From Adineta ricciae (lineage: Eukaryota > Rotifera > Eurotatoria > Adinetida > Adinetidae), in contig CAJNOJ010000019.1 in assembly GCA_905250025.1 (NCBI GenBank), forward strand, positions 310,001 through 374,000: a stretch of 64,000 nt of DNA. The letters are read 5' to 3'. The notes below the pieces were generated by a model. It searched no databases and was not told where the DNA came from. It was given only the letters and a program-made list of their open reading frames with translations. This document shows positions 16,472-51,179 of this stretch, piece after piece. The number at the start of each line of letters is the position of its first letter. Position 1 is the first letter of the stretch. Both the position numbers and the translations under genes were made by a program.

Positions 16472-18877
16472 ATGCAGACGAATTTCGAGCAACTGATTGT
16501 TGAAGCTACTCAGTCGTCAGTATCGTCTGAGACTCTGGAACAATTAACTTTGCATTTTCAACAAAATCTTGGACAGTCATTGCCAGCGTTTCTAACGCAG
16601 ATATACAAACCATTATTATTGTTAGAGCATAAAGTATGGCACATATTTAGTGAAAGTTCCAATAACTGGTGTCAACAGTCATCCTGTTTGGAATTTTTCC
16701 AAGCTTTGGCAGCATTCAATAAAAATCTTATTTTTCAATCCGAAAGCATAACGATTGAAGAAAAGATTTCTCTTCTCATTCCTGAATCAATCGACTTAAT
16801 CAACACAATATTCGAACGGATCGACAAATGCACGGATGATAGCAATAATTTAATAACTTACGCCAATTACTGGTTTAAGAATCTTTCGTATCTGGTTCAT
16901 GAATATCCTCAACTGCAACAAATACCTATGATCGTTCACATCAATGAATATTTTGCGGAACACTTCTTGCTTACTGAGAAATTTCGATTTTATCTCAGTC
17001 AACTTTGTGAACCCAAAGCATCATCGATCATATTTACATCCAAGCAATTATTCTATCTACAAACATGTCCATTGTCTCTGAATACCTACTTTTATACGGA
17101 TCCAACGGTGTTTGCTTTTGGACCAGAACCAATTCTTAAACATGTAGCTAATGAATATCTACAAATAATACAAGTACAAAGTTTTCTAGTCGAATCATGG
17201 AGTCGAGAATTACTTGGTTGTATGACCCATCTGATTGGATTTATGCGTTCGTTTCTCTGGTGGGCTCGAGATCAAGGTACTGAACTAAATCATCTCCTTG
17301 TCACAGAAAATATCCTGTGTGATTATGTACGAGCATTGCTGCACATCATAGAATATGAACCATTTTACAAATCTCTAAAGACACAATGGTGCAATGATGA
17401 AACAATTTTATTCGATTCTATCTTACTCTTTTTGATGAATATTATACAAACACAAAATATAGATTGGTTCTTTCGTTCATTTCAACAATTACCGACTGTT
17501 TTGTTGAGACTAGCAGACGCATCCGCATATTATCGAATCTATCTATGTTCCTATGGCATATTGAGTGAAGTGCTGTCAGAAGAATATTTGAAAGAATTGA
17601 AGATCACAGACAACATCAAGGTTCTATTTTTTAATCTGCTCGAACAAGCATGGAATAATCCGGTAAAGAAATTCAAACAAATACATATTGGCTATTTCTT
17701 GAGAGGTAGGCGATTTGAATAGCTCATTTGTGAGTAAAATCAGTGTTCCATAACACGATACCACTGAATTTTAGGTTTTCTCAATTTATCGAAAAATGAT
17801 TTTATTCAAGAAGGTACAGCGAAAACAAAAAGAATAACGTTATTTGTTGATATGTGTGATCAGTATCCGATCGTTTTCGACATTATCTGGGCTCTCTCAT
17901 TCAACCATGATATTCAACAGCAACTTCGCGAAGATACACCATTCATTCACAAACTCACTCGTTTATCGAATCAAGCCACCGAAGAACAAATCAGAAAGGC
18001 AGTTGATGGCATACTCTGGAACTTACAGATCCACCAACAGTCTCATCCATCACCTGATATCTCATCTCAAAACGCTTTCGATATCATGATCAGCTACTCT
18101 CATAAAGACAAGCCTCTCTGCAAACAGATCTACGATGAACTCACTCGACGAAACTATCGAGTATGGATTGATTTCGATCAAATGCACGGAAACGTGATGG
18201 ATGCCATGGCAGAAGCCATCGATCGATCACGATCTATCATCATTTGTATGAGCGAAGAGTATCGAAAGAGTAATTTCTGTCGAGCAGAAGCACACTATGC
18301 ATTCCAGCAACAGCGTCACATAGTTCCTGTACTGATGCAGAAGCACTACAAGCCAGATGGGTGGCTATTGTTCCTGATGGGTCAACTGCTGTATGTTAAT
18401 TTCACGAAGTACGAGTTTGATCAAGCCATGGGAATGCTTCTGAAAGAACTCGGTGCAAATGATGTTCATCAAGTCGATGTTCAACCTGTAGTATCAAAAG
18501 ACGCTGCAGAAGTGTCATTGCCTTCTGTTCCACGCACTACAACTTCCATAACAAAACCGTTGTCACTCGACACAGAACGACACAGCATGCTCCAATGGGC
18601 ACAAGCTGAAGTACAAGAATGGCTCACGAACCATCACCTCGTGCAATTATGTCGCCTGCTGAGTGACTGTGATGGTCGAAGTTTAGTTCATTTGTACAGG
18701 TATATGAAAGGTGGTGAGAGATCAGTCGTGGTGTCATTATTACAAGACGATTGTATTCGTCGACTGAATGAAAGCATATCACTAATTGAGATCTCACGTT
18801 TTCGATCGTTGATGCACCAACAGAAGTGTAATGAAAATTCAACCAACACTACAAAGACGGCTGAAAGGACTTTTTGA
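16472..18877 (+). CDS. ARM-like/TIR/SAM-like protein, copy 1
   Basis: Two exons (16472-17705, 17775-18877) encode 778 residues. Residues 1-411 are an all-helical, unrecognised region with LLLEHKVWHIF and FYSKSLKTQW-like patches. After the intron comes an armadillo-like stretch (YPIVFDIIWALSFNHDIQQQ, GILWNLQ). The TIR domain (about 513-632) has box 1 FDIMISYSHKDKPLCKQIYD, a BB-loop region VWIDFDQMHGNVMDAMAEAI, and SNFCRAEAHYAF with Glu583 where plant and bacterial TIRs place the NADase glutamate. A SAM-like domain (about 685-770) begins MLQWAQAEVQEWL. In animals, SARM1 joins ARM, SAM and TIR in another order and destroys NAD+; a similar enzymatic role is inferred. The start at 16472 is chosen because it gives the 1234-nt first exon shared with other copies; no ATG occurs upstream in frame. 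The protein lacks the C-terminal CaaX box of copies 5-7. AATAAA near 18916. Confidence 0.88.
18433..18816 (+). repeat. Near-identical segment shared with copy 3 (23868-24251)
   Basis: 384 bases covering the linker and SAM-like domain align without gaps to 23868-24251. I find a single mismatch (GTGGTG against GTGATG). The flanks on both sides diverge at once. This is the pattern of a recent gene-conversion tract. Confidence 0.92.
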
Positions 18878-19233
18878 TGACTAATAAAAATTGCCCGTAT
18901 CGAGCATGTTGAAAATAATAAACGACCGAACAGTATTGCAGTTTTATTTTTTACCTTGTTTCGCCAATACGCTTATCGTTCGATAATACCTCTAAGTGCA
19001 AGTCTTTTCTTTTGCATGATACCAACATTAATAAGGCTTTTATATTGGTTTGCGATTCAGTTCAGGTAGTTTTTGACGAACTAAATACTGCAGTCACGTC
19101 AGATATTCACTAAAATAATAAGTGACAAGTAGAGTGTGCATATATAGACCCATGAAACGAAAATGATATTCATAGGTATTCATATCAATCAAAACAGCGT
19201 AATTATTTGCGATATATTATATCCGCACATGCT
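18878..19233. other. Spacer between TIR copies 1 and 2
   Basis: 356 bases. AATAATAAA near 18916 can end copy 1 and TATATAG near 19140 may be a promoter element of copy 2. No gene is seen. Confidence 0.4.
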
Positions 19234-21583
19234 ATGTTACCACTTCACAGACCAGCGAATACTATGAGAACTAGTTTCGATCAACTTGTTTCGTCATTGA
19301 ATGCATGTGATCTGCGTATTGACACTGTTGAGCAGTTGAGAACGATTCTTAAGCAGGAAAAGACTGCTTCATTGCCTTCATTCATCAATCAGTCATATGA
19401 TTCACTACTAATCTTGGAACAATGGGCATGGCAGTTGCTCAGCGAAGATTATCGACCATGGACTACTGAATACTCATATTTGAAATTCTTCTATGACTTA
19501 GCCTTGTTCAATCGAGACATGATATTTAATAATGGTGATATTGACATTGATCGTAAGATATCGTTGCTGTTCTGTGTGACTATCGACCAAATCGACTCCA
19601 TATTCACACAGATCGATCAAATCAATGACGAAAACGACGTCCTCATCAGACTCCTTAATCTGAGTCTGGATAATTATGCATATTTTTTCTATGACCAACC
19701 ACAGCATCAAGTACCAGCAGTAGTTGATCACATCGACAAATACATCGTTCGTAAATATATTATGAGCAAAGAGCACAAATTCTATTTAGCAAAACTTCAC
19801 GAGCCAAAGTTGGCCAAGTCAGTATTCACAAGTAAACTATTGTTCTATCTGGTCGGGTGTACTGCATATACTCACACTTACATGATTAGAAAATTGCTTT
19901 CGTTTCCGTATACAGCTGAGGAAATGGTTGCTTTCCTTTGTGATGATTATCTGGAGATTATACGTATTCATAGCCATGCAATAGAGTCGTGGAGTAAAGA
20001 ATTCCTTGCGTGTATAGCACAACTTATTGGTTTCATGTCCGGCGGTTTCTGGTGGAAGGGACGGCAGCAAACGCAAATAAAGAAGGTTCTTCCGACGGAA
20101 CAGATTACATGCAGTCATGTTGAGGACCTTATTCGTATCATTGCTTATAAACCATTCTACAGTCAAACGAAATCGGCTCGATCGAATGATGAAACCGTTC
20201 TAATCGATTCAGTGATAATGATTCTATTAATTATAGTTCAAAGCCAGAACATAAATTGGTTCTTTCGTTCGAATCTGTTTGTTAGAGACACCATTATCCA
20301 TGTGGCTGAACTAGCATTGAATGATGAAGTTTGTCTATGTGGATATTGCATTCTTGGTGAAACTCTCGCAGACGACCAATTGAAAGCCATTAAAATTGCT
20401 GACAATATCAGTGATTATTTCTTTCGCATAATAGAAGAAGCATGGAAAAGTCTAACTAAAATATTTCGGCAAATTCCACTTCAGCTTCTCTTAGAAGGTA
20501 TGTTTAGCTTGTACCTTCCTTAACTTTTCTTCTTGTCATCAACTTGTAGGTTTCCAAATTTTGTCAAAAAATGACAGTATACAACAGAGAACTGCCAGTT
20601 CGAACAAACTTTCATTCTTTATTCATATGTGTGATCAGTATCCGATCGTTTTCGACATTATCTGGGCTCTCTCATTCAACCATGATATTCAACAGCAACT
20701 TCGCGAAAATACACCATTCATTCACAAACTCACTCGTTTATCGAATCAAGCCACCGACGAACAAATCAGAAAGGCAGTTGATGGCATACTCTGGAACTTA
20801 CAGATCCATCAACAGTCTCATCCATCGACGGATATCTCATCTCAAAACACTTTCGACATCATGATCAGCTACTCTCACAAAGACAAGTCTCTCTGCAAAC
20901 AGATCTACGACGAACTCACTCGACGAAACTATCGAGTATGGATCGATTTCGATCAAATGCACGGAAACGTGATGGATGCCATGGCAGAAGCCATCGACCG
21001 ATCACGAACCATCGTCATTTGTATGAGCGAAGATTATCGAAAGAGTAACTTCTGTCGAGCAGAAGCACACTATGCATTCCAGCAACAGCGTCACATAGTT
21101 CCTGTACTGATGCAGAAGCAGTACAAGCCAGACGGGTGGCTATTGTTTCTGATAGGTCAGTTGTTGTATGTTGATTTCACAAAACATGAGTTTGCTCGAG
21201 CCATGGAAATGTTTTTGAAAGAATTGCAATTTACCGAAGTGTATGAGCCGAGTATTGCACCTGTACGTCCTAAAGCAAATGTACAATCTGAACCTGTTGG
21301 AATCACTGTAGCGCCTTCCGTTCGAAATATTTCCGAATGGACTCAATCTGAAGCCCTAGGCTGGCTGGCTGAACGTGAACTTGTGCAAATGGTTCGACTC
21401 CTTGCAGGATGTAACGGTCGAAGTTTAGTGTATCTTCATAATTATATGAAGGCAGGTGGAACACGACAAACTCTATCGTTGCTTCAACAAGATTCTTTGC
21501 GGCTTACAAATCAAAGTCTGAGCATCATCGAACTTTCTCGTTTTCAAGCAGCAATGGACGAACAAACAGAAATCAACCATTAG
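19234..21583 (+). CDS. ARM-like/TIR/SAM-like protein, copy 2
   Basis: Two exons (19234-20497, 20550-21583). Starting at MLPLHRPANTMRTSF gives 765 residues; a second in-frame ATG at 19264 would give the 1234-nt first exon of its relatives and 755 residues, so both starts are possible. The N-terminal region has EQWAWQLLSEDYRPW and the shared INWFFRSN motif. From QQQLRENTPFIHKL to HEFARA the sequence is nearly that of copies 1, 4 and 5. The TIR has FDIMISYSHKDKSL and EDYRKSNFCRAEAHYAF, with the putative catalytic Glu present. The SAM-like part (ISEWTQSEALGWLAERELVQ) is its own version. The protein ends TEINH without a Cys. AAATAAA near 21642 is a likely poly(A) signal. Confidence 0.88.
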
Positions 21584-21918
21584 AGCTTCTTCTCATATGC
21601 ATTATTTTACACTTGAATTGTCGACTATGAATCGATTCTTAAATAAATACTTTTATGTAGTTAGTGAATCATTCTTTTCATAAATTGACAAAGACTATGT
21701 ATATAGGATTACTAACTTAGCATTCATCGTTACCAATGCGCAAGAAAAGGTGACTGTATGAGTACTTTTTTATAAGAACGAAAAGAAAAATCCATGCAAA
21801 TAGTAATCGAAATATAATTTATTGAGGGATACGTGGTAGGTAACCTCTATCGAGAGAAAATATTGTAAAAAAAACAAGATGTCAGTGTATAAGTTGAGAT
21901 TACATTAGTCATCGACGC
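21584..21918. other. Spacer between TIR copies 2 and 3
   Basis: 335 AT-rich bases with a poly(A) signal for copy 2 near 21642 and no coding potential. A GTATAAG word near 21887 lies about 30 nt before the next ATG. Confidence 0.4.
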
Positions 21919-24273
21919 ATGTATTCTAATTTTGAGTTGCTTATCACTGAACTTTTCACAACAACCACATCATCGAAAGTCGTTTATCAGTTGAATCTGA
22001 TTCTTCAGGAACAGATTGATGAGTCCCTATCAAAATTCGTCGCCGAATGTTTCAGTTGTATATTAACGTTGGAATCTTGGACATGGCGTCTTCTTAGTCA
22101 AAATTCTCATCAGTGGATCGACGAGTCATCGTATCGTGAATTACTTTACTCACTAGCCTCATTCAATAAAAAACTGGTCTATGACTACAATGGTATCGAA
22201 GTCGATCGGAAGGCTGCTTTGCTCTTTCCAGTTACTGTTGAGCAAATCAAGAATATTTTCCAGCAAATCGAACAAACAAAAGATGACAACGATCCTTTTA
22301 TATTCATCGTCAGTCTTTGGTTCGATAACCATTCGTACTTCGTACACGATAATCCACATGCGACTAAATTGTCGATTACTGACTATATCAATCAATATAT
22401 CGTAGAGCGTTACATAATGACCAGACAATTCAAATCGTACCTCGCCGAACTTCGACGTTCAGATCTATCAAGTACAATCTTTACCGCGAAGATGCTATTT
22501 CACGTCAAAACAAGTTTATTTTCCTTATTTTCCTATTTGGGTACGAAGGATCACCAGTATTTCTATACAGCTGACGAAATGCTCCGATACCTAAGTAATG
22601 ATTATTTACAAATCGTCCATGTCCATCATGCAACAGTCGCGCAGTGGAATAGAGATCTATCGGCGTGTATCGGACATTTAACAGGTGTGATTGCAAAATG
22701 TTATTGGTCAGATGAGAAGAATGGAACGAATACGAAAATACTGTTTCCAACCGAAGAAGTAACATGCAATCATGTACGAGAACTGATTCAAATATTGAGT
22801 TACGAACCTTTTTATGAGGAAATACGACCTGTACGATGGAATGATGAAACGGTGTTGATCGACTCGATTTTGATGGTTTTGTTGAGCATTGTCAAAACGC
22901 AAAATATCAATTGGTTCTTTAGATCGAATATAAGCATTCGCGAAACACTTCTCAACGTTGCCGAAAACTCCGCGTATGATGAAATCTGTTTACGAGCATA
23001 TGTCGTCATGGGCGAAGTGTTAACCGATGAGCAATTGAAAGAATTAAAGATTACCAATAGTATGGCTGGCTTCTTCTTCAAAATGCTTGAGGAAGCATGG
23101 CAACACCCATCTAAAGAATATAAGCAAATACCAATTCAATACCTCCTGAGAGGTAAATCAATGTCATATTCCTTCATTCCTTTTTTGTTGTTCATCCGTT
23201 TCATTTTAGATTTTCAAATTCTATCCAAGAACGATTCCATCAAGCAAAGAACAGCTGATTTGTCTAAGGTACAACTTCTCATTCAAGTGTCTGAACAATA
23301 TCAAACGGTTTATGACATTTTCTGGACATTATCATTTAATACAGACATTCAACAACAACTACGTTCGAATCCATTTTTCACGTCTCAATTGCTGCATCTG
23401 ACAAGAGAGTGTGAGGACAAGAAACTGCGTCAGATTGTTAACGGAATACTCTGGAACTTGCAAGTCCACCAACAGTCTCATCCATCACCTGATATCTCAT
23501 CTCAAAACACTTTCGACATCATGATCAGCTACTCTCACAAAGACAAGTCTCTCTGCAAACAGATCTACGACGAACTCACTCGACGAAACTATCGAGTATG
23601 GATCGATTTCGATCAAATGCACGGAAATATCATGGACGCCATGGCAGAAGCTATCGATCGATCACGAACTGTCATCATTTGTATGAGTGAAGAGTATCGA
23701 AAGAGTAATTTCTGTCGAGCAGAAGCACACTATGCATTCCAGCAACAGCGTCACATAGTTCCTGTTCTGACGCAGAAGCACTACAAGCCAGATGGATGGC
23801 TGTTGTTTCTGCTAGGTCCGTTGTTGTATGTTGATTTCACAGAACACGAACTCAATGTGGCAATCGAAATGCTTCTGAAAGAACTCGGTGCAAATGATGT
23901 TCATCAAGTCGATGTTCAACCTGTAGTATCAAAAGACGCTGCAGAAGTGTCATTGCCTTCTGTTCCACGCACTACAACTTCCATAACAAAACCGTTGTCA
24001 CTCGACACAGAACGACACAGCATGCTCCAATGGGCACAAGCTGAAGTACAAGAATGGCTCACGAACCATCACCTCGTGCAATTATGTCGCCTGCTGAGTG
24101 ACTGTGATGGTCGAAGTTTAGTTCATTTGTACAGGTATATGAAAGGTGGTGAGAGATCAGTCGTGATGTCATTATTACAAGACGATTGTATTCGTCGACT
24201 GAATGAAAGCATATCACTAATTGAGATCTCACGTTTTCGATCGTTGATGCATCAAGAAAGATGGAATAAATAA
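21919..24273 (+). CDS. ARM-like/TIR/SAM-like protein, copy 3
   Basis: Exons 21919-23152 (1234 nt) and 23210-24273 give 765 residues when spliced. The 57-nt intron (23153-23209, GTAAAT...TTTTAG) is a codon multiple without an in-frame stop, so the unspliced frame runs through as 784 codons; the intron is placed by homology with the other copies. Unlike copies 1, 2, 4 and 5, the segment before the TIR is divergent (TDIQQQLRSNPFFTSQLLHL), and near-identity only begins around 23450 (GILWNLQVHQQSHPSP). The TIR has a few own changes (GNIMDAMAEAI, VLTQKHYKPDG, LLGPLLYVDFTEHEL) and keeps CRAEA. From 23868 it is copy 1 sequence. It ends RWNK without a CaaX box. Confidence 0.88.
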   Translation: MYSNFELLITELFTTTTSSKVVYQLNLILQEQIDESLSKFVAECFSCILTLESWTWRLLSQNSHQWIDESSYRELLYSLASFNKKLVYDYNGIEVDRKAALLFPVTVEQIKNIFQQIEQTKDDNDPFIFIVSLWFDNHSYFVHDNPHATKLSITDYINQYIVERYIMTRQFKSYLAELRRSDLSSTIFTAKMLFHVKTSLFSLFSYLGTKDHQYFYTADEMLRYLSNDYLQIVHVHHATVAQWNRDLSACIGHLTGVIAKCYWSDEKNGTNTKILFPTEEVTCNHVRELIQILSYEPFYEEIRPVRWNDETVLIDSILMVLLSIVKTQNINWFFRSNISIRETLLNVAENSAYDEICLRAYVVMGEVLTDEQLKELKITNSMAGFFFKMLEEAWQHPSKEYKQIPIQYLLRGKSMSYSFIPFLLFIRFILDFQILSKNDSIKQRTADLSKVQLLIQVSEQYQTVYDIFWTLSFNTDIQQQLRSNPFFTSQLLHLTRECEDKKLRQIVNGILWNLQVHQQSHPSPDISSQNTFDIMISYSHKDKSLCKQIYDELTRRNYRVWIDFDQMHGNIMDAMAEAIDRSRTVIICMSEEYRKSNFCRAEAHYAFQQQRHIVPVLTQKHYKPDGWLLFLLGPLLYVDFTEHELNVAIEMLLKELGANDVHQVDVQPVVSKDAAEVSLPSVPRTTTSITKPLSLDTERHSMLQWAQAEVQEWLTNHHLVQLCRLLSDCDGRSLVHLYRYMKGGERSVVMSLLQDDCIRRLNESISLIEISRFRSLMHQERWNK
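23868..24251 (+). repeat. Near-identical segment shared with copy 1 (18433-18816)
   Basis: Partner of the tract in copy 1: 384 ungapped bases with one mismatch seen. Immediately upstream (FTEHELNVAIE) and downstream the two genes differ. Confidence 0.92.
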
Positions 24274-24514
24274 TTGCTGATCTCTCTGTTTCATTAATCT
24301 GACAATCACGCTAAAATAATTTGACAGCGTACATATTATATTTTGATTATTAAAAAACTATGAATGCATGATTCACATGCTACCCCAATAATAATTGTAT
24401 TTCAATATCATACATAAAGAGTCAACGAGGGATAGGTAATTTATGTGCATACAGACAAAATAAAACAGCCATGCAAAATTATATAAAATAGCATAATTAT
24501 TCGAAACACGCGAC

Positions 24515-26973
24515 ATGATACGATTTCACGATCAGGAGAAACGACAAGAAATGATAGAAAATAGTTTCGATCAACTTGTTATCGCACTGGATGCACCACG
24601 TATATCTACTGACGTCATTGAACGATTAATGTTTATTCTTGCTCAGAAAACAAACGAGTCGTTATTATCTTTTATCGATCAATCATATCAATCGGTCTTA
24701 TTTCTGGAACGATGCATGTGGAAGTTACTTAGCGAAGAAAAGCAGCGTCAATGGTTGAAAAACTCTTCTGTTGTGAAATTATTTTATTCGATTACATCCC
24801 TGAATAAAACTCTTATATTCAACTTAGATTCTATCGATACTGATAGCAAAGCGGAACTTCTTTTTCCAGCTAGCAACGATCAAGTCGATTCCATATTCAA
24901 ACAAATCAATGACACAACCAATGATAATGATGCATTCGTTGCTATTGCCGCACTTTGGTTCGATAATCTAGCATACTTCACTGTTGAAAATACATTTCTC
25001 AATGCCTTGCCAATAGTCAGACATCTTAGTCAATATATTGTGCAAAACTATATAATGAGCGAGCAGTATCAAGCGTACTTGGATCAACTCTCACAAGCGA
25101 ACTTGATAGAATCGATATTTACGACGAAAATGTTATTTCACATCAGAACGTGCTCATTCTATGCATACTCTTGCGTATGTCTTGGAACTGATGCATTTCC
25201 ATGTACTGCTACGGAAATTATTCGATTGATTGGACCCAAATATCAACAAATCGTTCATATTCATAGTAAAAATGTAGCACTGTGGAGTAAAGAATTACTA
25301 TCATGTATAACACATTTGATTTCTTTCATGTCTGGACTTCTCTGGTGGGATGCAACGACAGGCGGACAGTCGAACGCAATATTTTCAACAGAGAAAATTG
25401 TGTGTGATCATGTGGAAGATCTTGTTTGCATAGTTAATCATGAACCACTACATAAATTGCTTAAATCTGACAGATCGAATGACGAAACAAGCCTGATAGA
25501 TGGTGTTATAGACATATTGATGGCTATTGTAAAGGCACAAAATGTCAATTGGTTTTTCCGTGCAAATACACATATACAAAATACCCTTTTGGCATTAGCT
25601 GAAGTGTCACCGTTCGATCAAATCTGTCTCTGCGCTTATGGCATATTGGGAAAGACTCTTACGGAAGAACAAATGAAAGGTTTAAAAGTATGCCATACTA
25701 TTAGCGGGTTTTTCTTCAATATGCTTGAACAGGCCTGGAATCATCCATCGAAACAATACAAACGAATCCCAGTTGATCACTTATTAGAAGGTACGAACAT
25801 AGTTTCACAAAAATTTCCCTACTGTAATGTTGCTCGAGGTTGAATTTTTCGGACGTCTACTTTTAACAGGACTATCTGGTGCCATGTATAATATGTTTTT
25901 ATTTTACAGGTTTCTTGAACATATGCAAACATGATTTTATCCAGCAAAGAACTGCTGATATGAATAAGATAGGGTTACTTACGGACATTACGAATGAATA
26001 TCCGATTGCTTTCGACATCATCTGGGCACTTTCCTTCAACCATCAAATCCAACAGCAACTTCGCGAAAATACACCATTCATTCACAAACTCACTCGTTTA
26101 TCGAATCAAGCCACCGACGAACAAATCAGAAAGGCAGTTGATGGCATACTCTGGAACTTACAGATCCATCAACAGTCTCATCCATCACCTAATATCTCAT
26201 CTCAAAACACTTTCGACATCATGATCAGCTACTCTCATAAAGACAAGTCTCTCTGCAAACAGATCTACGACGAACTCACTCGACGAAACTATCGAGTATG
26301 GATCGATTTCGATCAAATGCACGGAAACGTGATGGATGCCATGGCAGAAGCCATCGATCGATCACGAACTATCATCATTTGTATGAGTGAAGAGTATCGA
26401 AAGAGTAACTTCTGTCGAGCAGAAGCACACTATGCATTCCAGCAACAGCGTCACATAGTTCCTGTTCTGATGCAGAAGCACTACAAGCCAGACGGGTGGC
26501 TATTGTTTCTGATAGGTCAGTTGTTGTATGTTGATTTCACAAAACATGAGTTTGCTCGAGCTACAGAAATGCTCATGAAAGAATTAAATGATGCGGGATG
26601 CGTTGAAGTCACTGTGGTACCCAATTGTTCGATATCCAGCGGATGCTCTTCATCTTTGCTGGTTTTGTCGACAGAACCAGCTGCTCCAGAAAATATTCTG
26701 GAATGGACATCCGTATATGTGCATAACTGGTTGATCGATCACAAACTTATGCAGATGTCTCGCCTGCTTGTCGACCACGATGGGCGGAGTTTACTCTATT
26801 TCAATGGCTATATCAAAAATGGCGCAACGAAACAAACGTTGAGATCTTTACAGGAAGAATGTGTTCGTCAAATAGGTGAATCTTTATCACTATTAGAACT
26901 AGCTCGTTTGCAATCGCTAATTGATCGAGAGAAACAGTTTGCCCGCTTGTCAAAATGTGCTAAACATAACTGA
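24515..26973 (+). CDS. ARM-like/TIR/SAM-like protein, copy 4
   Basis: Exons 24515-25790 and 25910-26973 encode 779 residues; the 119-nt intron is the longest of the family. A second in-frame ATG at 24551 (MIENSFDQLV) aligns better with the starts of the other copies. The N-terminal half shows SFDQLVIALD, ERCMWKLLSEEKQ, FFRANTHIQNT. The pre-TIR and TIR regions belong to the homogenised plus-strand group (QQQLRENTPFIHKL, SNFCRAEAHYAF, GQLLYVDFTKHEFARA as in copy 2). The linker is unique (CISSGCSSSL-like, Ser-rich) and the SAM-like part begins ILEWTSVYVHNWLIDHKL. It ends AKHN without a CaaX box. TATATAAAA near 24480 is a possible TATA element. Confidence 0.88.
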
Positions 26974-27800
26974 CGTTTACTTTTTCTTATAATGTGCCGC
27001 GTAGATTCTGTCGAGATTGAAAGGGAGGTAACTATCAGTAATAAAGGGTATGATGCTTGTATCGCATGAATTTCAACAATTGACGTCGGTTGGAATGCTA
27101 TCATATGTGGCAGCGTGTATTTTCGAAATAGTTTTATCTTATAATCTGCTTTCTAAATGTTAAGCGAGATCAAGATTCTATTTAGTAGTTAACTGGTAAG
27201 AAGGCATCGTCACCTACGATAAAAGACATTCCAGTTCTGCATCTTGACTAGGATGCATACATTGGTTCGCTTGAAACTGATAATCATTTTTAACCTCACT
27301 TCAATATCCTTTCTCAAATATTTTTGTACGAGATAAAAATCGAACTATTTCTTATTTGAATTCTGATTGCCGTTCGTACACATTCTTTTGACATCAAGTC
27401 AGTTCGAAATACGATCCCTGGTGATAAAATTCCGTCAAACTGCTTGATCTTAATAGAATACTGTCATTCTCGGTACAAAACTTTACCGAGATCAGATTCA
27501 TTTCAATGAAAAGAAATCGAATATCATGCGCTCTTAATGTTGTTCTTCTACTTCGACAGTCATCAGCGTACATAACAGGTAACAGAATTTCAATATTGAC
27601 ATTAACTTTCTGCGTGCCACTTATATCATCCTAAAAAAGAGACTTTAGTCTAAAATATTCGTCATTAAGTGATTCATAAAAAAACAAAAGACGTCAATGA
27701 TATTAGACGCAACAATAATTGTACCATCACATCACCGAATAAATATAAAGAGCCGAGAATTAACAACATATAGCATTAAATCTCACTCTCAAACTAAATA
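26974..27800. other. Longest spacer within the plus-strand TIR array
   Basis: 827 bases between copies 4 and 5, two to three times the other spacers. No gene, repeat unit or coding remnant of a sixth copy could be recognised by eye. A TATA-like word lies near the 3' end. Confidence 0.4.
27744..27750 (+). promoter_or_regulatory. TATA-like element upstream of TIR copy 5
   Basis: TATAAAG, 51 nt before the ATG at 27801, in a less A-only context than most. Confidence 0.3.
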
Positions 27801-35076: not shown

Positions 35077-36044
35077 GTCGAAATCCAACGATTTGCATGC
35101 GTTTATATCTGGTTCAGATAGCTTTATCTTCTAACAGGATAAATATGTAATCATGTTCAAAGTGAAGTTTTATTTTCAAACAAAAAAGTTTAGTATTCTA
35201 TGAATTCTTTGTTTTCAACGTTTGTAAATATATAAATAAATTTTTGAAGTATGAACATTACAACCGATTCTCTATTTCAACAGGACGTTCACAGCGAATG
35301 CAAAGAATAGGTTATTTCACATACGCAAAGAATGATTTATTCAGCGATTTTCTAAATCAATTGAAGAACATTACTTTTAAATTAAAAGGCTTATTTTGTC
35401 AATACGTAGTTGTTTCTTTTTTTAACTTTGATGAAGAACATACCACGTCTGGTATGACTAATAGTTATATATGTCCTTTTCAGCGAGCGTACTGAGAGTG
35501 CTCTTTTCTATACGTCTCATGATCGTTCGCTTTTTTTTCTCTTTTTCCTTCTCTTACTTTTGCATAAAATAAAATAAAAACAACGAGTTGTGCAGATGAA
35601 TGTAGAGGTCGATGTTTTTTAGTAGAAAATAACTGCTCAGAACAAGTTTATTTCTTTGTGTATCACTGATCATATTAGCATAAGTTGGTCAAACGTTGAA
35701 CAATCGACCGCTATCGTGAGTGAGTTGTTTTCTGTCAAGACGATATGTTACTTTTTACAAACTAGTCATTGGCAGCTGTTAATGATTTTCGTTGTCTCTT
35801 TGCTCTATAAGAATGGAAATATGTTTTTGTTTTGAGCAGGAAACAGCCCATTTTTTAAACTAGTGCAAATATTTTCATTGTTCTATGTTGTAAACAACGT
35901 TGCCCGTTGAACCGTGACAACATAAAAGTGCATAGAATGACTCAGCAAAGATGGCAGCCGTGTTTATTTACTTTCACTGAATTTGAATTGTTCGGTGTAA
36001 TTATAGATACGAAGACATTTATTTTGTTGATTACAAGTGATATA
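35077..36044. other. Intergenic, rhomboid to multi-saposin gene
   Basis: 968 bases without a supported gene. Contains the rhomboid poly(A) signal near 35235 and a T-rich tract near 35530. Short frames show no homology. Confidence 0.45.
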
Positions 36045-39000: not shown

Positions 39001-42000
39001 AGCAAGTGATCAAATATATCAAAACTGATGTTTGTCGCAAACTTGGATCATTATCAGCCTTGGTAGTTATTCCATTGAAGCACCTAGAGAAATAATAAGA
39101 TTGTAATAATGCTTTTCTAGTGTGACAGCCTTCTGGACTCGGAAGGCGCAAATTTGTTTGCTGCGATTTCGAAAAAGGTTTGTCCGCATAAAGTATGCTC
39201 CATATTCGATGTCTGTCCAAAAACTACTGCATTCGATAATGTAGGTTTTATGTGTATACTTGACAAGTTCTCTTAATATATAGTATTTTAGTGTAATGAT
39301 AAATGTGAGTGTTGTGTATCAAAAATGGAAAATTACCAAGTTCGATTAGCATCGTTTTTGGTATGGTTTGTCTGAAGGAAAAACAATTCGACTGACGTTT
39401 CCTATTTAGAATACTATGGTTGCGACTACAAATGCTTTGTGTAAACGTATGACCCATTCTACTGACGTAAGATATTCAGAAGAGAATCGATTCTATGAAC
39501 TTGGTTTCATTGGATTTCTAGTGTCTTCGAGTTGCAAGTTATTTTGAATCGGACGTCAAAGCGTTGACCACTCGTTATGTAAGTTGATTAAAAAACTGAT
39601 GTCTTTCACAGTTTTACTGTTTAGGACGCCAAACAAATTTGTCAATCGTTAACTCATTGTGCTACAGACACTTCGAAAGAAGTAAACGCTTGAATCTTTG
39701 TATCATCTTTAACCACACTGTCTATTCTCTAGTGTGATACTAGTAGCGATAAATGTACATGTTGTCAAAATCAATTCAACAATCGCCAAGAGAACTTTCA
39801 AACCGTAGTTGATAAAATCATGGAAAATCATCGTAGTCTATGCACGGATGATAACTGTCGTACACTTGTTCGATCAAATCAACAAGAGATACTGTATCAT
39901 ATAGCAGCAATCAATACTTTAACATATTGTCAGCGTTCTGGCGTGTGTAGATCATCATCAGGACAACGATCAATCCCATTTATTACTGATCTATTGGCAA
40001 ACATGGAATCAACTGTTCCAGCAATAAACAATCCTTGCACTAGTTTTGGAAGTTCAAAAACCATGTGTGAACATTTATTGGTGTCGAAACAAAGCGCTCG
40101 ATATATGAAAGTTTATATAGCTTTGCTAACCGGTGATGCCAATCATATTGGTGAAGATTTTAAAAATCAGCAAACAAGTACATGCGACGCATGTAAAAAT
40201 GCTGTTCAATCCTCGAAAGACTTTTGGACTAATGCATTAGTAAGATGATCGGATTGTTGAAAAACTCACAATCGATTTGTTTTCTTAGGGATCGTTGCGT
40301 GATACTCTGTTACAAGCATGTGATCGCTGCCCATCGAAAGATCAATGCCAAAAATATATCAATCAGCGATATGACATACTTAAATCTTATGTCGACAAGA
40401 TTGATCCTGAACAATTTTGTCAATCGATTCGTCTTTGTTCAGCGGTAACAGCAACAAACGTGTGTTCAACATGTATCAATCGTTTACAACTGCGCAAAGA
40501 TGCTGCTTCACAAGCAGTTGATCGATTAGCAGGATATTTCAATGATCAATGTCAACGCTTTGCGCAGAAACAATGTCAAATATATGTTAAAGAAGTTCAT
40601 GACTCTATTCAGAAGTCAATCGAGGAGTTTGATCCAAAAGCAACATGTACTGTAATTGGTTTTTGTGAATCGATGGGTAATGAGCTTGAAATGAACTTCG
40701 TTGAGCGTGAGCTATCTTTACAAGCCGATATTGAACAAAATATTTGTTCGAAACTTGGTCCATTCGAAACATTGTGCAAGAGTGTTATTCAAGGTGATTC
40801 GAAACAAATTCAAGCATTGAAATTAGATTATGATATTAAAGAAGTAATGCGCATTGGTGATGATCTTCATGATCTACTCGAAACAGACGATTTTGGTAAG
40901 TTTCCGATTAGCAAAAAAGACTATCGTACCGGATACTTTGATTTAGATGAATCGAGTGACGATAAATGTCAATGCTGCATTCGTCGAATTATGCGCCGAA
41001 AACGTGCTGTTCGATTTATTGGCGATGCAGTGTTTTTCTCTTTGATTCGTTCATGCCACCGTTGTCCTGCTAAACATCTATGTCGACGATATTGGCTTGT
41101 TGCCAAGGCTCGATTCGACTGTCGTATCAGTCGAATTGATCCCAAACGTGTCTGCACACATTTTGGCCTCTGCAATACTACATCTGTTTATGGTCATAAA
41201 GGAGAAAATGCACCAGAGAAATGCGATGACACTGCCCCAGTAGAAACTCCACAAATCGATCTTTCCAACTCAACATGCATTCTTTGTGAATATGCAATGA
41301 ATATTCTTTCGAATTATATCAATCGTCAATCAACTGAAGAAGAAATTGAACAAAGTTTACAAAAAATTTGTAGTCAAATGCCGTCCACACTGCAAAATCC
41401 ATGCCTCGAATATATCGATAACTATGGACCATCAATAATTGCGACACTTATGCGTAGATTCGATCTTTCAACTCTTTGTCGTCGACTTAATCTATGTACA
41501 AGTCAAATGCAATTCGATCTTACAGATATTACCAAAGCTGACACAACAACCTGTGGTGTGTGTAATTATCTCTCAACATATCTTCATTCAGCTTTAAAAC
41601 GTGACTCAAATGAACAAGCACTTCAACAAGCTTTAGGAAGTGTTTGTTCGTATGTATCCGATGAACTTAAGACAAGATGTCAAACAATTCTACAATTATA
41701 TTCTCCATACATTCACCGATTAGAATTAAGTCCCAAAAATAGCTTCTGTAAACAATTAACAATCTGTGAAATGCCTATGCTGGATTTAGAGCCGGCCATT
41801 CGAGTGAACGAAGCTAATGAAATTAGCACATCAGCAAAAACACCTACAACTAAGGAACATCCTCATTTAAATCCTCAATGCTCATTGTGTCAATATATTA
41901 TCTCATATTTGGATGCAATCATGAAGAATAATAAGTCCGAACAAGCTTTCGAAGATGCACTAAAAAAAGTTTGTAAAATTTTACCAAGTAAGTTTCTAGC

Positions 42001-42687
42001 AAAAAGCGAAAACTGCACGTCTATGATATACATTTCTATTCGAGGTAAAGAAGCTAGCCAGTGTGAAGAGTTTGTTAAAACTTATGGCCCAACTCTCGCA
42101 CAGTTGATTGCGGAGATGGCTGATCCAAAAGTAGTTTGTCAGTATCTTAATATGTGTCCAGAATCGTCGGTGCGGGAGAGTCCAACGTTGCCCACTGAAA
42201 TCGCACATGACTTAACACCATATACATGTACCATCTGTCAATTTATTGTTAGTCGCATAAAGCGTTTTATTGCAACTGATCAAGACACCAACCAAGCTAT
42301 CACGGCAACGAAAGAATCCTGTGATCTATTCAATGCTGAGAACTTAAAAACACAATGTAAAGCTTTTGTTGACCAGCATGGTTCCTACTTCCTTCATATC
42401 GTATCGAATGATATTTTACCAAGATCAGCATGTCTATCTATGAAAGTTTGTCCGATAACTTATCCAATTACATCAACATCAGTGGCACCAATTTCTACTT
42501 CGACTACACAAAATAAATGTGCTTTCAGCCAGAAAATGTGGTGCCTCACGCGTGCAATTGCCAAATCATGCGATGTAAGAAACATATAGATAGATTATCA
42601 TAAAATATCCAGTTTTGTTTTTAATAGGCTGAAGAATATTGTGAACGTGAAGTCTGGACAAAAGGACAATTATTTATTGAAAACTAA
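36045..42687 (+). CDS. Very large prosaposin-like multi-saposin precursor
   Basis: A secreted/lysosomal precursor made of repeated saposin domains. It opens MAKALFVAYLVTLSISSIAG (signal peptide), then a saposin-A type domain, CAIGPEYWCQSFKNADDC...HCTDTVW. A second saposin-A domain (CTWGPSYWCSSLSNSREC) follows near 36701 and a third closes the protein (CAFSQKMWCLTRAIAKSC/ AEEYCEREVW, across the last intron). Between them are about a dozen saposin-B-like units with the six-Cys pattern; those at 41270-42450 are the most regular (TCILCEYAMNILSNYI, TCGVCNYLSTYL, QCSLCQYIISYL, TCTICQFIVSRI). The 5' third has many tiny exons, often beginning with TGT, while 40295-42589 is almost one exon with a 57-nt in-frame intron at 41988-42044. 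Saposins bind lipids and help sphingolipid hydrolysis; vertebrate prosaposin has four B domains. Small exons between 37000 and 39800 are approximate, and a split into two genes cannot be excluded. AATAAA near 42895. Confidence 0.82.
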
Positions 42688-42932: not shown

Positions 42933-43051
42933 GCTTACGGCCATACCACGTTGAATACACCAGTTCTCGTCCGATCACTGAAGTTAAGCAACGTCGGGCT
43001 CGGTTAGTACTTGGATGGGTGACCGCCTGGGAATACCGAGTGTCGTAAGCT
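42933..43051 (+). rRNA. 5S ribosomal RNA, copy 1
   Basis: A complete 119-nt 5S rRNA: GCTTACGGCCATACCACG at the 5' end pairs with the 3' CGTAAGC. Internal RNA polymerase III control elements are present (GTTAAGCAACG of box A, GATGGGTGACCG of box C). A T6 run directly after is the terminator. The gene lies in the 3' flank of the saposin gene in the same orientation. Confidence 0.96.
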
Positions 43052-43148
43052 TTTTTGCACTTTTGTTTTTGACTTTTCATTTCGAAATAGTGATTAGACT
43101 TGTACTCTTTGGAAATTCCATCAGATTTGGTTTTTTTTTCGTTTGCTN

Positions 43149-43258
43149 CATACCACGTTGAATACACCAGTTCTCGTCCGATCACTGAAGTTAAGCAACG
43201 TCGGGCTCGGTTAGTACTTGGATGGGTGACCGCCTGGGAATACCGAGTGTCGTAAGCT
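43149..43258 (+). rRNA. 5S ribosomal RNA, copy 2 (5' end next to an N)
   Basis: From CATACCACG on, the 110 bases are identical to copy 1 and end in CGTAAGCT followed by T runs. The first nine bases of the gene are not seen: the sequence before is TTTCGTTTGCTN, with the only N of the window at 43148. The N probably marks a short assembly uncertainty and the gene may be complete in the genome. The spacer from copy 1 is 97 bases. Confidence 0.9.
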
Positions 43259-43713: not shown

Positions 43714-44793
<1,080 letters not shown>

Positions 44794-44918
44794 ATCTGTT
44801 TTCGACTTTTAAAACATATAAAAGTAAACTAAATATCTAGAAAAAAAAGGAAACCCTAAGTAGGCTATCCCTAGCGATACCAAAGCGCTGTGTTTTTTCT
44901 TATAAATGAGAGTATAAA

Positions 44919-46164: not shown

Positions 46165-48552
46165 TTACATTAGTTCACAGTAACTGAAAAGACTAAGTTT
46201 GTAATTATCAACATTTGGTAGCTGTCTGACTGGAGTTGATTGTGTTTGCTTGGATAAAAGTGTACGAAAACGAGCCATTTCTAACAAAGATATGTTCTCG
46301 TGAATACGTCGTTGAGAATCATCTTGTAGCAAATTTAGACTTTGTTCTGGATTACAGTGTACTAATAATTCATTCAAACTGTTAAGACTGGGCCCATCAA
46401 AGTCAAATAATAAACGAGCCATTTGTTTAAGGTTCAGTCCAACCAACCAACTTTGTACGTCGTTACTATTCCAATCCATAATATTATCAGGAAGACTTCT
46501 CAAACTTGTGGATGTAGATGAATCCACATAATTACGACCATTCGTTGTCACCTGCACCGGCACTGCTTGTGTTTGTTTTATCACAGGAGCTTTCAATTCT
46601 TTTATTAACAATTCAATGGCTCGTGAGAACTCATACTTCGTGAAATCAACATACAGCAATTGGCCAATGAGAAACAGTAACCATCCATCTGGCTCATAAT
46701 GTTCTTGCAATAGTATTGGCACTATCTTCAGTTCTCGTTGGAATGCATAATGTGCTTCTGCTCGACAGTAGTTGCTTCGTCGATACTGTTCACTCATACA
46801 TATGATGATCATGTTTGATCGCTCGATAGCTTGTGCCATGGCATCCATAATGTTTCCATGCATTTGATCGAAGTCGATCCAAACACGAAAGCCAGTTTTG
46901 ACAAGTTCTTCGTAGATTTGTTTGCAAATGCCTTCGTCTTTATGTGAATAACTAATCATAATATCAAACATTGGTGTTTCGGATATTGAACGATCGAGAC
47001 GTTTGGAGCTAAGATTCCAAAGAATGCCAGAAATGGTATTTCTCATTTTATCATTCTCCGTATTTTCTTTAAGTAAGCCTAATTTATCCATAAATGCACG
47101 ATTGGAAAGAAGTCGTACTTTGATATCTTCATTGAATGAAAGTGCCCAAATAATGTTGTATGCAACCGGGTACTGATCACACATGTCAAGAAAAAGTTGG
47201 ATATTATTCGAATCGGCCGTTTTCTGTTGAATCGCGTCGTTTTTCGACAAAGTTAAAAAGCCTATAGATCAATGAAAACGATAAAATAGAGCGAAATAAA
47301 CAGGAGTAGTCTTACCGTTCAACAATTCTGGAATAGGTATTCGTTTACATCGTCGAGTCGGATCATTCCATGCGTATTTCAAAATCCGGAAGAAAAATTC
47401 GGATATATTCGCAGTAATTTGCAACTCTTTTAACTGTTCATCAGATAGAATTTCCGCCAGGATTCCATAAGCACACAACGATATCCGATCGTAATATGAT
47501 TTTTGAGCAATGACTAACATAGTATTTGACAGCATCGTTTCTGTGCGGATGAAACAACTCAAATCTTTCAGTTGTTTCAGAGCACCTAACAGAAAAATCA
47601 ATGTTGAATCAATGAGAATCGTCTCGTCATTTGACCATTGTGTTGAAATACTTTCATGGATACGTTTTTCACTGATCACAGCATTCAGACCTTGGATATA
47701 ATCATAGAATAGCTGTTGAGATGACGTCATGTATTCGATGTAGATCTCATCATCATTTCCCCACCAACAGCATGCACATAGAAAATCGTTCAAATGTGCT
47801 ATACATGTTAGTAATTCGCCACTCCACGAAGCTACTGATGAGCTATGAGTAAGAATAATCTGAATATAATCTTCGCCATATCGTCGCAGTAAATCGTCGC
47901 CGCGAAATGGAAGCTTCTCCAACTTTGAACATACGTACATACGAAATAAGAATGAGCATGTTTTGATATAAAATAACTGTTGAGCTGTAAATATCGATTG
48001 AGAAATTTGTTTTTGACCAAGTTCGGTTAAATATGTTTTGTATTGATCGCTTAAAATATAATGTTGTCCGATGTGTTGAAATAAGTGAACCATGATTGGT
48101 AAAGTAACAAATTGTGCGTATTCATGAACGAAGTAGGACAGATTATCGAAGTAACGACTGAGTAGACTAAGATAGGAATCATTCGGATTTTTTATTTGTT
48201 CAATTTCATTGAAAATTCGATCGATTAAATCTGTATTTTTTGGAAGAATCAATGAGGATTTAACATCTGCGTCAATATTCTTGCCATTGAAGATTAAGGT
48301 ATGATTAATTGCTATCAATTTCTCTAATAATCCTACACAAGAAGTTTGATTGATCCACGAACGGGACTCTCCAGCAAATAACTCCCATGCCCATTGTTCA
48401 AGATTGAGTAATGACGAAATCGACTGAGAAACGAATGTTGGAGATAAGTCATCGGTTTGTTCTTGAAGATGAATGGTAATTTCATTTTGCACATCAAAGT
48501 CCAATGGAGCATTCAATAGTGTGGAGATTAGCTCGTCAAACTTGTGTGTCAT
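46165..48552 (-). CDS. ARM-like/TIR/SAM-like protein, copy 6, minus strand, CaaX end
   Basis: Exons 48552-47316 and 47261-46165 (54-nt intron) encode 777 residues. The first exon, MTHKFDELISTLL, is divergent but has the family landmarks LEQWAWELFAGESRSW and WSNDETILIDS. After the intron, GFLTLSKNDAIQQKTADS leads to an ARM-like stretch (EDIKVRLLSNRAFMDKLGLL). The TIR belongs to a second group: FDIMISYSHKDEGICKQIYE, FRVWIDFDQMHGNIMDAMAQ, SNYCRAEAHYAFQRELKI; the putative catalytic Glu is present. The SAM-like domain begins IMDWNSNDVQSWLVGLNL. The protein ends LFSYCELM; CELM fits a CaaX box with X = Met. It converges on the plus-strand array across 16 kb of unrelated genes. Confidence 0.88.
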
Positions 48553-48754
48553 CTATATGTGTCCTTTTATTGTAATTGCAACGTGTATACTGACTGATGA
48601 CAAAGTGATTTTGTTTTGTGTGTCTTATAAGTCATCGCTTATTTATTTATTAGTATTTTTCTGCTTGACGTGTGACATCCTACCATGAGTTAACGACATC
48701 GTTTCGATAGATGGATGTCAAAATAATGTTCGCGAGGCGAAAGCTTTTATTCTT

Positions 48755-51179
48755 TTACATTAGGCGACAACAAGATAAGAGAGATTTCTTTCTTCGAGTA
48801 GTATTTCTGTTATCTCGCCGAAACCGTCGACAAAATGACCGTTCCGACGCATGTTTTTGTTTTTCGATCAATGATTGCAAATAGGATAGTTCGACAAGTG
48901 ACAAACTTTCGTTCGTTATTCGGTAGGATTCTTCTTGGAGAAGATTAAGAACTTGTTTCGTTTCCCCATTCTTTAAATAGTCGCTGAAATGTATTAAGCC
49001 ATGGCCATCACAATTGATTAAAACCTGAGACATTTGCATCAAATTATGTTCAAGTAGCCAGTCATGAACATTTGCTTTCGTCCAGTCTTGGATGTTTCTC
49101 GGAATGTTTGATGGTGACAGTGTTTTCATCGGAGTTTGCGCATTACATAATACAGCCACCGTACCGGTTCTTGATCGTAACGGTGTAACGCTACTCTCAG
49201 AAAACTCGTCAGCTCGTATTTCGTCTAACAACAGCTCAATTGCTCTTGCAAAGTCATGCTTAACGAAATCAACATATAACAGTTGTCCAATGAGAAACAG
49301 TAACCATCCATCCGGTTGATAGTGTTCTTGCAACAGTATTGGCACTATCTTCAGTTCTCGTTGGAATGCATAATGTGCTTCTGCTCGACAGTAGTTGCTT
49401 CGTCGATACTGTTCACTCATACAGATGATGATCATGTTTGATCGCTCGATAGCTTGTGCCATGGCATCCATGACATTTCCGTGCATTTGATCGAAGTCGA
49501 TCCAAACACGAAGGCCAGCTTTGACAAGTTCTTCGTAGATTTGTTTGCAAATGCCTTCGTCTTTATGTGAATAACTAATCATAATATCGAATGTGGTTTT
49601 GTCAAGAGGTTCTGTTAACGGTCGGTCCTGATGCGTCGATTCGAGATTCCATAGAATTCCATGCGTCATTTTTCTCATTTTTTCATTGTCACATTCTTTG
49701 GCTAGATGGACCAACTTAGACATGAACATCGTATTCGAACGGAGTTGCTGTTGGATATCTTGATTGAACGAGAGTGCCCAGAGAATGTCGAAAACGATCG
49801 GATACTCATCGCTCATTTCAATAAAAATCGATATCTTGTGTAAATCGGCCGTTTTCTGTTGGATGGCGTCAATTTTCGATAGAGTTGAAAAACCTCGAAA
49901 AGAAATTCACTCAAAATCGACATCCTTCTTCGTGAATACACTTACTTCGCAGGAATTGACCGATTGGGATCTGTTTGTATCTCTTTGTCGGATGTCGCCA
50001 AGCTTGTTCGAGCATGTCATAGAAAAATTGACTTAAGTTAGCGGTAATCTGCAGATCTTTCAAACGTTCATTGCACAGGATTTCTCCTAAGATAACATAC
50101 GCACGTAAACATATCTTGTCATGAACGGATAGTTCAGCAATGTACAATAAAGTATTAGGCAGCGAAACTTTCGAACGAAAAAACCAGATTAGGTTCTGTG
50201 CTTGTGCAATATTCTTTAATGAGAATAAACAGAAGTCCATCAGAATCGTTTCATTCGTCGTCCATTGCGCCTGAATTCGCTCATAGAATGGTTTATAACT
50301 GATAATGCGTATAAGTGCACTGATGTACGAACAAAGAATTGTTTCCGAAGAAAACAATGAATTGATCGGTGTAATTTTATCGCCGCCCCACGAACAACAT
50401 GCTGAGACGAACCCGATCAGATGTGTTAAACATGTTAACAATTGCTCGCTCCACATATCAATAAGATGACTGTGAATGTCGACGACTTGGACGAAATCAT
50501 TGCCGATATACTGCATAATTTCTCGTGGTGTTGAAGGAAACTCTTGAGATTTCGATGTTAAATAGGAATTCAATGAAAATGTACACGTACGCATGCAAAA
50601 TAGTTGCTTATAGGTAAATATCGATTGTGGTAATTTCGTTTGCTGCAGTTGCACCAAATAGACTAAAAACTGTTCAGCCATAAGATAATCCCGTCGAAAA
50701 TATTCGTTGACAAGTGACATAATCGGCGATGTTTCATACTGTGGATGCTCGTAGACGAAAAACGAAAGATTATCAAACCAGAGACTAACAATATGAATAA
50801 ACGAGTCATTCTCTTCTTTATTTCGATTAATTTGCTCGAATATGTCATTGATTAACTCAAGATCCTTTGGCAGAAGAAGATTGGCCTTGATTCCATCATC
50901 AATGTCCTCATAAGCGTAGATTAAATTCTTATTGAAATGTGCAACAGCGTACAGTAGGGTTAAATAATTCGGTTGATTGATCCATTGGTATGAATCTTTA
51001 CTAAGAACTTTCCACGCCCAGGATTCGAGTTTCAGTAACGATTGATAAGATTCGGATATGAATGATGAGAACAAATCGTTGTTTTGTCTCTCGAGGATCG
51101 TTGTGACTTCGCAAATTCCGAATGTAAACGATGAAGATAACGGTAGAACATCAATCAATTGCTCGAAATTATTTTTCAT
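48755..51179 (-). CDS. ARM-like/TIR/SAM-like protein, copy 7, minus strand, CaaX end
   Basis: Exons 51179-49946 (1234 nt) and 49893-48755, with a 52-nt intron, encode 790 residues, the longest copy. It starts MKNNFEQLIDVLPL; the in-frame codon further upstream is not an ATG. Pre-TIR sequence (QDIQQQLRSNTMFMSKLVHL) is closest to copy 3, while the TIR (KDEGICKQIYEELVKAGLRV, SNYCRAEAHYAFQREL, LLQEHYQPDGWLLFLIGQLL) is almost copy 6. The SAM-like part begins IQDWTKANVHDWLLEHNL. A basic tail (SFCRRFRRDNRNTTRRKK) leads to SLLSCCRLM: a CaaX box of the C-x-L-M kind behind a polybasic stretch, as in Ras-type membrane targeting. Confidence 0.88.

Follow-up and report, generated by a model that had tools for sequence, protein, structure and literature searches.

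Seven clustered genes encoding ARM-like, TIR and probable SAM-like domains, with array-specific homogenisation of the TIR segment

Seven two-exon genes in two convergent arrays

The DNA analysed here is a stretch of 64,000 nucleotides from Adineta ricciae (contig CAJNOJ010000019.1, positions 310,001 to 374,000), referred to as the window, and all coordinates are counted from its first letter. It contains seven intact two-exon paralogues (g1 to g7), rebuilt from the window sequence, whose spliced proteins are 755-790 amino acids long with no internal stops. The domain order of these proteins is an ARM-like helical solenoid, a TIR domain, a linker and a SAM-like domain, of which the TIR domain is certain, the ARM-like part well supported and the SAM-like part probable. 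As a first-pass annotation of the window had described, the genes form two inward-facing arrays: g1 to g5 lie head to tail on the plus strand (16,472-30,189), with 277-827 bases between each stop and the next start, and g6 and g7 lie on the minus strand (46,165-51,179), convergent with the first array. The space between them, given as roughly 16 kb, measures 15,975 bases and holds no copy of the family. The strongest feature of the family, absent from that annotation, is an array-specific homogenisation of the TIR domain.

The single intron at a fixed phase-1 position, also proposed before, was recovered in all seven genes (GT-AG, 49-119 nt, with splice sites predicted from the sequence alone). 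The first exon is indeed 1,234 nt long in most copies (g1, g2, g3, g5 and g7), and 1,240 nt in g4 and 1,237 nt in g6; for g2, this length holds only with the second in-frame ATG, the other one lying 30 nt upstream, and g4 too has a further in-frame ATG upstream of its modelled start. The gene models are as follows.

16472-18877, plus strand: g1, 778 amino acids; exon 1 16472-17705, intron 17706-17774 (69 nt), exon 2 17775-18877.
19264-21583, plus strand: g2, 755 amino acids; exon 1 19264-20497, intron 20498-20549 (52 nt), exon 2 20550-21583; alternative ATG at 19234.
21919-24273, plus strand: g3, 765 amino acids; exon 1 21919-23152, intron 23153-23209 (57 nt), exon 2 23210-24273.
24551-26973, plus strand: g4, 767 amino acids; exon 1 24551-25790, intron 25791-25909 (119 nt), exon 2 25910-26973; alternative ATG at 24515.
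27801-30189, plus strand: g5, 779 amino acids; exon 1 27801-29034, intron 29035-29083 (49 nt), exon 2 29084-30189.
48552-46165, minus strand: g6, 777 amino acids; exon 1 48552-47316, intron 47315-47262 (54 nt), exon 2 47261-46165.
51179-48755, minus strand: g7, 790 amino acids; exon 1 51179-49946, intron 49945-49894 (52 nt), exon 2 49893-48755.

The g3 intron (23153-23209, plus strand) is a multiple of three and free of stops, and an unspliced transcript would add 19 residues in the solenoid region, so that a retained-intron form of this protein is possible.

A six-frame scan of the window with four segment profiles recovered the seven full copies with each of them (E-values over the seven copies of at most 9.3e-188 for exon 1 and 1.2e-82 for the TIR), and no further family copies or fragments were found in the window, the next best profile matches having E-values of 0.14 or worse. 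Since the profiles were built from the same seven sequences, the independent evidence for the family consists of the pairwise repeats and pairwise identities.

Domain composition of the proteins

The two exons were folded as separate models. The exon-1 model is confidently predicted and all helical (predicted local distance difference test score, pLDDT, 85; predicted template modelling score, pTM, 0.86), and its first ten Foldseek matches are ARM-repeat proteins (importin-alpha, APC, plakophilin). No consistent Pfam family was found in exon 1, where four families each appear in one of the seven copies. Over its first 97 residues, the exon-2 protein matches the N-terminal domain of V-ATPase subunit H in six of seven copies at E up to 1 (best 2.2e-6; g5 only 0.017), as well as other ARM proteins (catenin delta-1 at E 0.0023, APC from 0.0073). 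Because the exon-1 model and the start of exon 2 are both ARM-like, the solenoid, of about 500 residues and different in each copy, seems to cross the exon junction, as judged from the two separate models. The ARM-type fold proposed in the first-pass annotation was therefore retained, and its division into a helical N-terminus and an ARM-like part was replaced by what looks like one solenoid.

The TIR domain, which had been assigned to all copies, is confirmed by Pfam TIR_2 matches to the exon-2 protein in seven of seven (best E 2.2e-26) and by the TIR fold of the exon-2 model, for which SARM1 (E 4.2e-4) and the MyD88 TIR (8.4e-4) are the only Foldseek matches at or below 0.001 among 1,058 at E <=10; look-alike folds such as dehydroquinases are also among the best 50 of these. 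Against PDB sequences, the family TIR profile has its best match in Cat1, CRISPR-associated TIR 1 (E 5.1e-9), an NAD-cleaving enzyme (NAD, nicotinamide adenine dinucleotide), and the PADLOC model SAVED_TIR matches with a best E of 2e-9. Cat1, SAVED-TIR and Thoeris ThsB are bacterial TIR NADases; the Thoeris models scored below their curated cut-offs (ThcB4, 25.5 bits for g5 against 220; ThsB_TIR, 15.0-19.4 bits for g1, g3, g5 and g7 against 21.2). In the alignment to the human SARM1 TIR, the column of Glu642, which we take to be the catalytic residue of SARM1, holds a glutamate in all seven copies, and in the printed HMMER alignment the same family residue pairs with a glutamate of the grapevine RUN1 TIR, presumably its catalytic Glu100. 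In the domain lists for both exons of all seven genes, no leucine-rich repeat (LRR) family (Pfam, E up to 1) and no death-domain family appears, and membership in the Toll family, with its LRR ectodomain, or in the MyD88 family, with its N-terminal death domain, was rejected. A hydropathy scan of the proteins gave no obvious N-terminal signal, and they are probably cytoplasmic.

In the model, the C-terminal region forms five helices, with moderate confidence. At E up to 1, Pfam assigns SAM_2 to four and SAM_3 to three of the seven copies, a SAM-containing liprin leads the PDB profile matches (E 0.015), and SARM1 SAM1 scores 8.7 bits against the family profile, while shuffled controls reach at most 6.3. 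The SAM-like assignment made earlier is thus probable, although no stand-alone SAM structure is among the best 50 of the 1,058 Foldseek matches to the exon-2 model. A structure prediction lacking the TIR or the SAM fold, the outcome on which the first-pass annotation had staked its proposal, did not occur. The exon-2 features of each gene, including the codon of the conserved glutamate (Glu), are these.

g1, plus strand: ARM-like unit 17777-18067; TIR 18068-18469 (Glu codon 18287-18289); SAM-like domain 18578-18841.
g2, plus strand: ARM-like unit 20552-20842; TIR 20843-21244 (Glu codon 21062-21064); SAM-like domain 21320-21580.
g3, plus strand: ARM-like unit 23212-23502; TIR 23503-23904 (Glu codon 23722-23724); SAM-like domain 24013-24270.
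g4, plus strand: ARM-like unit 25912-26202; TIR 26203-26604 (Glu codon 26422-26424); SAM-like domain 26686-26949.
g5 (representative), plus strand: ARM-like unit 29086-29376; TIR 29377-29778 (Glu codon 29596-29598); SAM-like domain 29878-30141.
g6, minus strand: ARM-like unit 46978-47259; TIR 46576-46977 (Glu codon 46756-46758); SAM-like domain 46228-46491.
g7, minus strand: ARM-like unit 49601-49891; TIR 49199-49600 (Glu codon 49379-49381); SAM-like domain 48839-49102.

Relatives and possible function

SARM1 and TIR-1 share with this family an ARM-like solenoid (at the level of fold, by the model and weak profile matches), a SAM-like domain, a TIR domain and the glutamate at the catalytic position. 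As had been pointed out, the order is different: SARM1 is built as ARM-SAM-SAM-TIR, with tandem SAM domains between ARM and a C-terminal TIR, whereas in all seven proteins here the TIR precedes a linker and a single SAM-like domain. Moreover, the family is a cluster of seven copies, and its TIR lacks the loop before alpha-C, presumably a feature specific to the SARM1 TIR. Orthology to SARM1 was rejected on domain order and SAM number. The bacterial TIR NADases Cat1 and SAVED-TIR are similar in TIR sequence and differ in their partner domains. Plant TNL receptors combine a divergent sensor with a conserved TIR output in tandem gene clusters, an idea common to both, but the family has ARM-like and SAM-like parts and no NB-ARC or LRR. 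For invertebrates, the defining classification of the ecTIR-DC families is reportedly that of Gerdol et al. 2017.

Widespread invertebrate ecTIR-DC families are cited (PMC6321704, PMC5549309), and ARM-TIR proteins are listed in oyster (PMC4346834) and, with function unknown, in Aplysia (PMC9334734); common to these and to our genes are an Armadillo-type fold with a TIR, multiple copies and an unknown function (PMC4346834, PMC9334734, PMC6321704). The available descriptions, on which this comparison is based, mention no SAM, and our genes add the C-terminal SAM-like domain. A TIR-SAM hybrid gene model is named in amphioxus (PMC2575513), the likeness being one of named domain combination only. 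In a survey of TIR proteins, diverse invertebrate architectures fall into one mixed group (PMC7075850), and a 2026 TIR atlas preprint reports whole TIR clades that are uncharacterised and frequent in non-model animals (PMC13142454). No description of the ARM-TIR-SAM order was noticed among the literature matches listed, a coverage that leaves out most subscription papers. The earlier remark that no described system has this architecture is therefore to be qualified, since ARM-TIR and TIR-SAM have each been listed: the nearest described class is that of the functionally unknown invertebrate ARM-TIR proteins, and ARM-TIR-SAM is a new combination, SARM1-like in its parts and not a SARM1.

Our preferred reading, held tentatively, is that the family acts as a self-inhibited signalling or cell-death switch, with the solenoid as sensor, the SAM for assembly and the TIR as NADase. 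The N-terminal ARM-like solenoid would sense a ligand, a pathogen product or a stress state and keep the TIR inactive; the C-terminal SAM would then bring copies together, the clustered TIRs would cleave NAD+ through the conserved glutamate, and the loss of NAD or the cyclic products would lead to defence or cell death. Beyond the anatomy, the glutamate and the mosaic pattern described below, this mechanism draws on analogy with SARM1 and C. elegans TIR-1, and it is by this analogy that autoinhibition, SAM-mediated assembly, cytoplasmic location, enzymatic activity and a role in immunity or death are proposed. The ARM domain of SARM1 is called auto-inhibitory (PMC8735862), C. elegans TIR-1 is activated by pathogen infection (PMC8923663), and in a ctenophore four TIR_2 genes go up after pathogen exposure (PMC11797021). 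An immune, cell-death or NAD function is plausible.

Several observations weigh against the switch and the anatomy beneath it. None of the 570 Foldseek matches of the exon-1 model at E <=10 reaches 0.001, and the exon-2 model scores a pLDDT of 64 and a pTM of 0.38. On the SAM side, in the cut-off comparison, which covers g1, g3, g5 and g7, the matches of g1, g3 and g5 are under the Pfam gathering cut-off, and g7 has only SAM_PNT, also under it; SARM1 SAM2 is not among the best eight rows of the shuffled-control comparison; and hhalign to SARM1 SAM1 gives a probability of 24% over 22 columns, a weak test given that the undoubted TIR itself reaches just 48%. All seven TIRs show an 8-residue gap where human SARM1 has its loop before alpha-C, and a conserved glutamate is no proof of NADase activity. 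Finally, the 19-residue hydropathy maximum exceeds 1.6, the usual threshold for a membrane segment, in three copies (g2 1.96, g3 1.63, g5 2.05); this peak, near residue 310, falls on a solenoid helix in the exon-1 model.

A serious rival, in our judgement somewhat doubtful, is that the proteins are non-enzymatic adaptors, in which the TIR serves as a scaffold, like that of MyD88, with partners bound through the ARM and SAM parts, in the manner of a mollusc-like expansion of ARM-TIR adaptors. The oyster and Aplysia papers do list ARM-TIR proteins among possible signalling adaptors (PMC4346834, PMC9334734), SARM1 was as of 2020 the only metazoan TIR with known NADase activity (PMC7075850), and the family TIR profile is closer to TLR2 (5.3e-5) and MyD88 (5.6e-4) than to C. 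elegans tir-1 (0.016; best E against PDB in each case). A scaffold would, however, leave the invariance of the glutamate and the best PDB match, to Cat1, to be accounted for, and the Toll-like receptors (TLRs) to adapt to may be absent in a bdelloid: no TLR is reported in two bdelloids surveyed or cited (PMC8609888), and Adineta vaga is described as having TIR- and LRR-domain genes and no canonical TLR (PMC6043800).

It is also conceivable, if unlikely, that the genes encode SARM1-like metabolic or stress sensors, whose ARM part responds to a nucleotide ratio or to damage from desiccation and whose TIR breaks down NAD, without any involvement in immunity. The combination of ARM, SAM and TIR is that of SARM1, which tops the Foldseek matches of exon 2 and appears among those of exon 1 at rank 34 (E 0.17). 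Such a sensor agrees poorly with seven divergent copies, SARM1 being typically one protein per genome (PMC7075850), and with the differences in domain order, SAM number and TIR loop.

Mosaic divergence, genomic setting and implications

The copies differ from each other very unevenly along their length. In windows of 40 aligned codons, nucleotide identity is 35-66% in exon 1 (columns 0-399), and in the two windows of the TIR core (columns 520-599) it rises to 92-99% in the ten pairs among g1 to g5 and to 95 and 99% between g6 and g7, against 73-78% between the arrays. Just before the core (columns 480-519), g1, g2, g4 and g5 are 94-99% identical to each other and g3 is 75-77% identical to them. 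Synonymous divergence follows the same pattern: in the TIR it is 0.12-0.36 within g1 to g5 and 0.36 between g6 and g7, and between the arrays it is 1.8-2.9 in seven of ten pairs and saturated in three. In exon 1, an old segment that has diverged in all copies, synonymous sites are saturated in 20 of 21 pairs. For the SAM, 10 of the 21 pairs are saturated and 10 lie at 1.1-2.8, and the value is zero for g1 and g3. These two genes are identical in 41 linker codons and have one difference in 74 SAM codons, with exon-1 proteins only 39% identical. The g1 segment concerned, with coordinates derived from residue numbers, is the following.

18431-18817, plus strand: two adjoining runs shared by g1 and g3 with one difference between them (g1 residues 631-759), covering the end of the TIR, the linker and the SAM.

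Long identical runs were assessed by permutation (2,000 shuffles, the three longest runs per pair, Bonferroni correction over 21 pairs). All ten pairs of the plus-strand array and the g6-g7 pair were significant, and across the arrays one of ten pairs was (g2-g7, 22 nt); all significant runs start at residue 437 or later, that is in exon 2. The test presupposes that matches are distributed evenly, and a conserved segment can inflate its result, so the synonymous contrast is the stronger evidence. In trees built with FastTree (local supports), exon 1 mixes the arrays at moderate support (g5 with g7, 0.84; g1 with g6, 0.83), whereas g6 and g7 pair in the TIR tree (1.00) and in that of the short ARM unit preceding it (0.84), where g3 joins them (0.97); in the SAM tree g1 pairs with g3 (0.998). 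In the 300 nt of DNA flanking the genes on either side, a single 23-nt match lies upstream, and downstream there is none.

We infer, with strong support, that the duplications are old and that later gene conversion, acting mostly within each array, homogenised the TIR while the presumed sensor stayed diverse. That strong purifying selection or recent duplication alone made the TIRs alike within each array, with no conversion, is very improbable. The TIR is constrained (ratio of nonsynonymous to synonymous divergence, dN/dS, <=0.40 in 18 of 21 pairs with finite dS), the run test has the bias just described, and support is only moderate for the exon-1 groupings at odds with the TIR tree; against this reading stand the low synonymous divergence in the TIR beside saturation in exon 1 of the same genes, the near-identity of g1 and g3 in linker and SAM beside their dissimilar exon 1, and the lack of similarity in the flanks beyond the 23-nt match. 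Tandem clusters can be passive, yet a decaying or inert repeat family, whether pseudogenes or mobile element cargo, is hardly credible for seven open, spliceable and length-conserved genes with no fragments in the window and an exon 1 that holds 411-413 codons despite 32-43% protein identity among copies.

Around the arrays, 15 of 20 neighbouring open reading frames match Pfam at E <=0.001, with families including gamma-glutamyltranspeptidase, cytochrome c1, ING and PHD parts, a gene with ZZ and Di19 zinc fingers, rhomboid, saposins, SH2 and SH3 exons (in our reading GRB2-like), peroxiredoxin, a rhodopsin-type receptor and a dynein attachment factor. Together with the 5S rRNA genes listed below, these neighbours support an animal chromosome. 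A bdelloid spliced-leader motif had no match, an outcome that carries no information on the taxon. Peptide-pattern scans, whose prefilter can miss distant relatives, confirmed no relatives of exon 2 in a bacterial genome collection and none of either exon in a viral one, and recent bacterial transfer of whole genes was rejected on the basis of the intron, the ARM and SAM parts and the animal neighbours. Other features of the surroundings are:

30836-32185, plus strand: cysteine-rich repetitive open reading frame of 450 amino acids downstream of g5, with no Pfam match at 0.001.
35859-42586, plus strand: open reading frames with SapA and repeated SapB units, resembling a large multi-saposin (prosaposin-like) gene.
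42933-43051 and 43141-43258, plus strand: two tandem 5S rRNA genes between the arrays, with 114 identical bases; the second copy has an ambiguous base N close to its start, at 43148.
51440-52213, minus strand: open reading frame of 258 amino acids directly upstream of g7, likewise unmatched in Pfam at 0.001.

Proteins that couple a helical, sensor-like part, variable between copies, to a near-uniform and possibly NAD-cutting one are suggestive of an immune or cell-death receptor family. In the switch proposed above, array-local conversion would keep the TIR uniform beside diverse solenoids, so that different inputs lead to one output. Two considerations temper this: the diversity of exon 1 could be plain age, and, as conversion needs similar DNA, a conserved TIR may attract it with no selection for a shared output. 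A wider possibility, speculative and on present grounds improbable, is that clustered ARM-TIR-SAM genes serve, in animals of a lineage lacking Toll-like receptors, as a germline repertoire of intracellular sensors, in which solenoids diverge per threat and the NAD-cleaving TIR cassette is kept alike by array-local conversion. Such a repertoire would correspond in animals to the TIR receptors of plants.

For a non-model animal of the kind in which the TIR atlas reports uncharacterised clades (PMC13142454), the seven genes form a compact, testable family: the glutamate at the catalytic position is conserved, the domains are defined, and natural mosaics set input apart from output. The homogenised TIR beside divergent solenoids, the part of most specialist interest, leaves a clear evolutionary signature for which other genomes can be searched.

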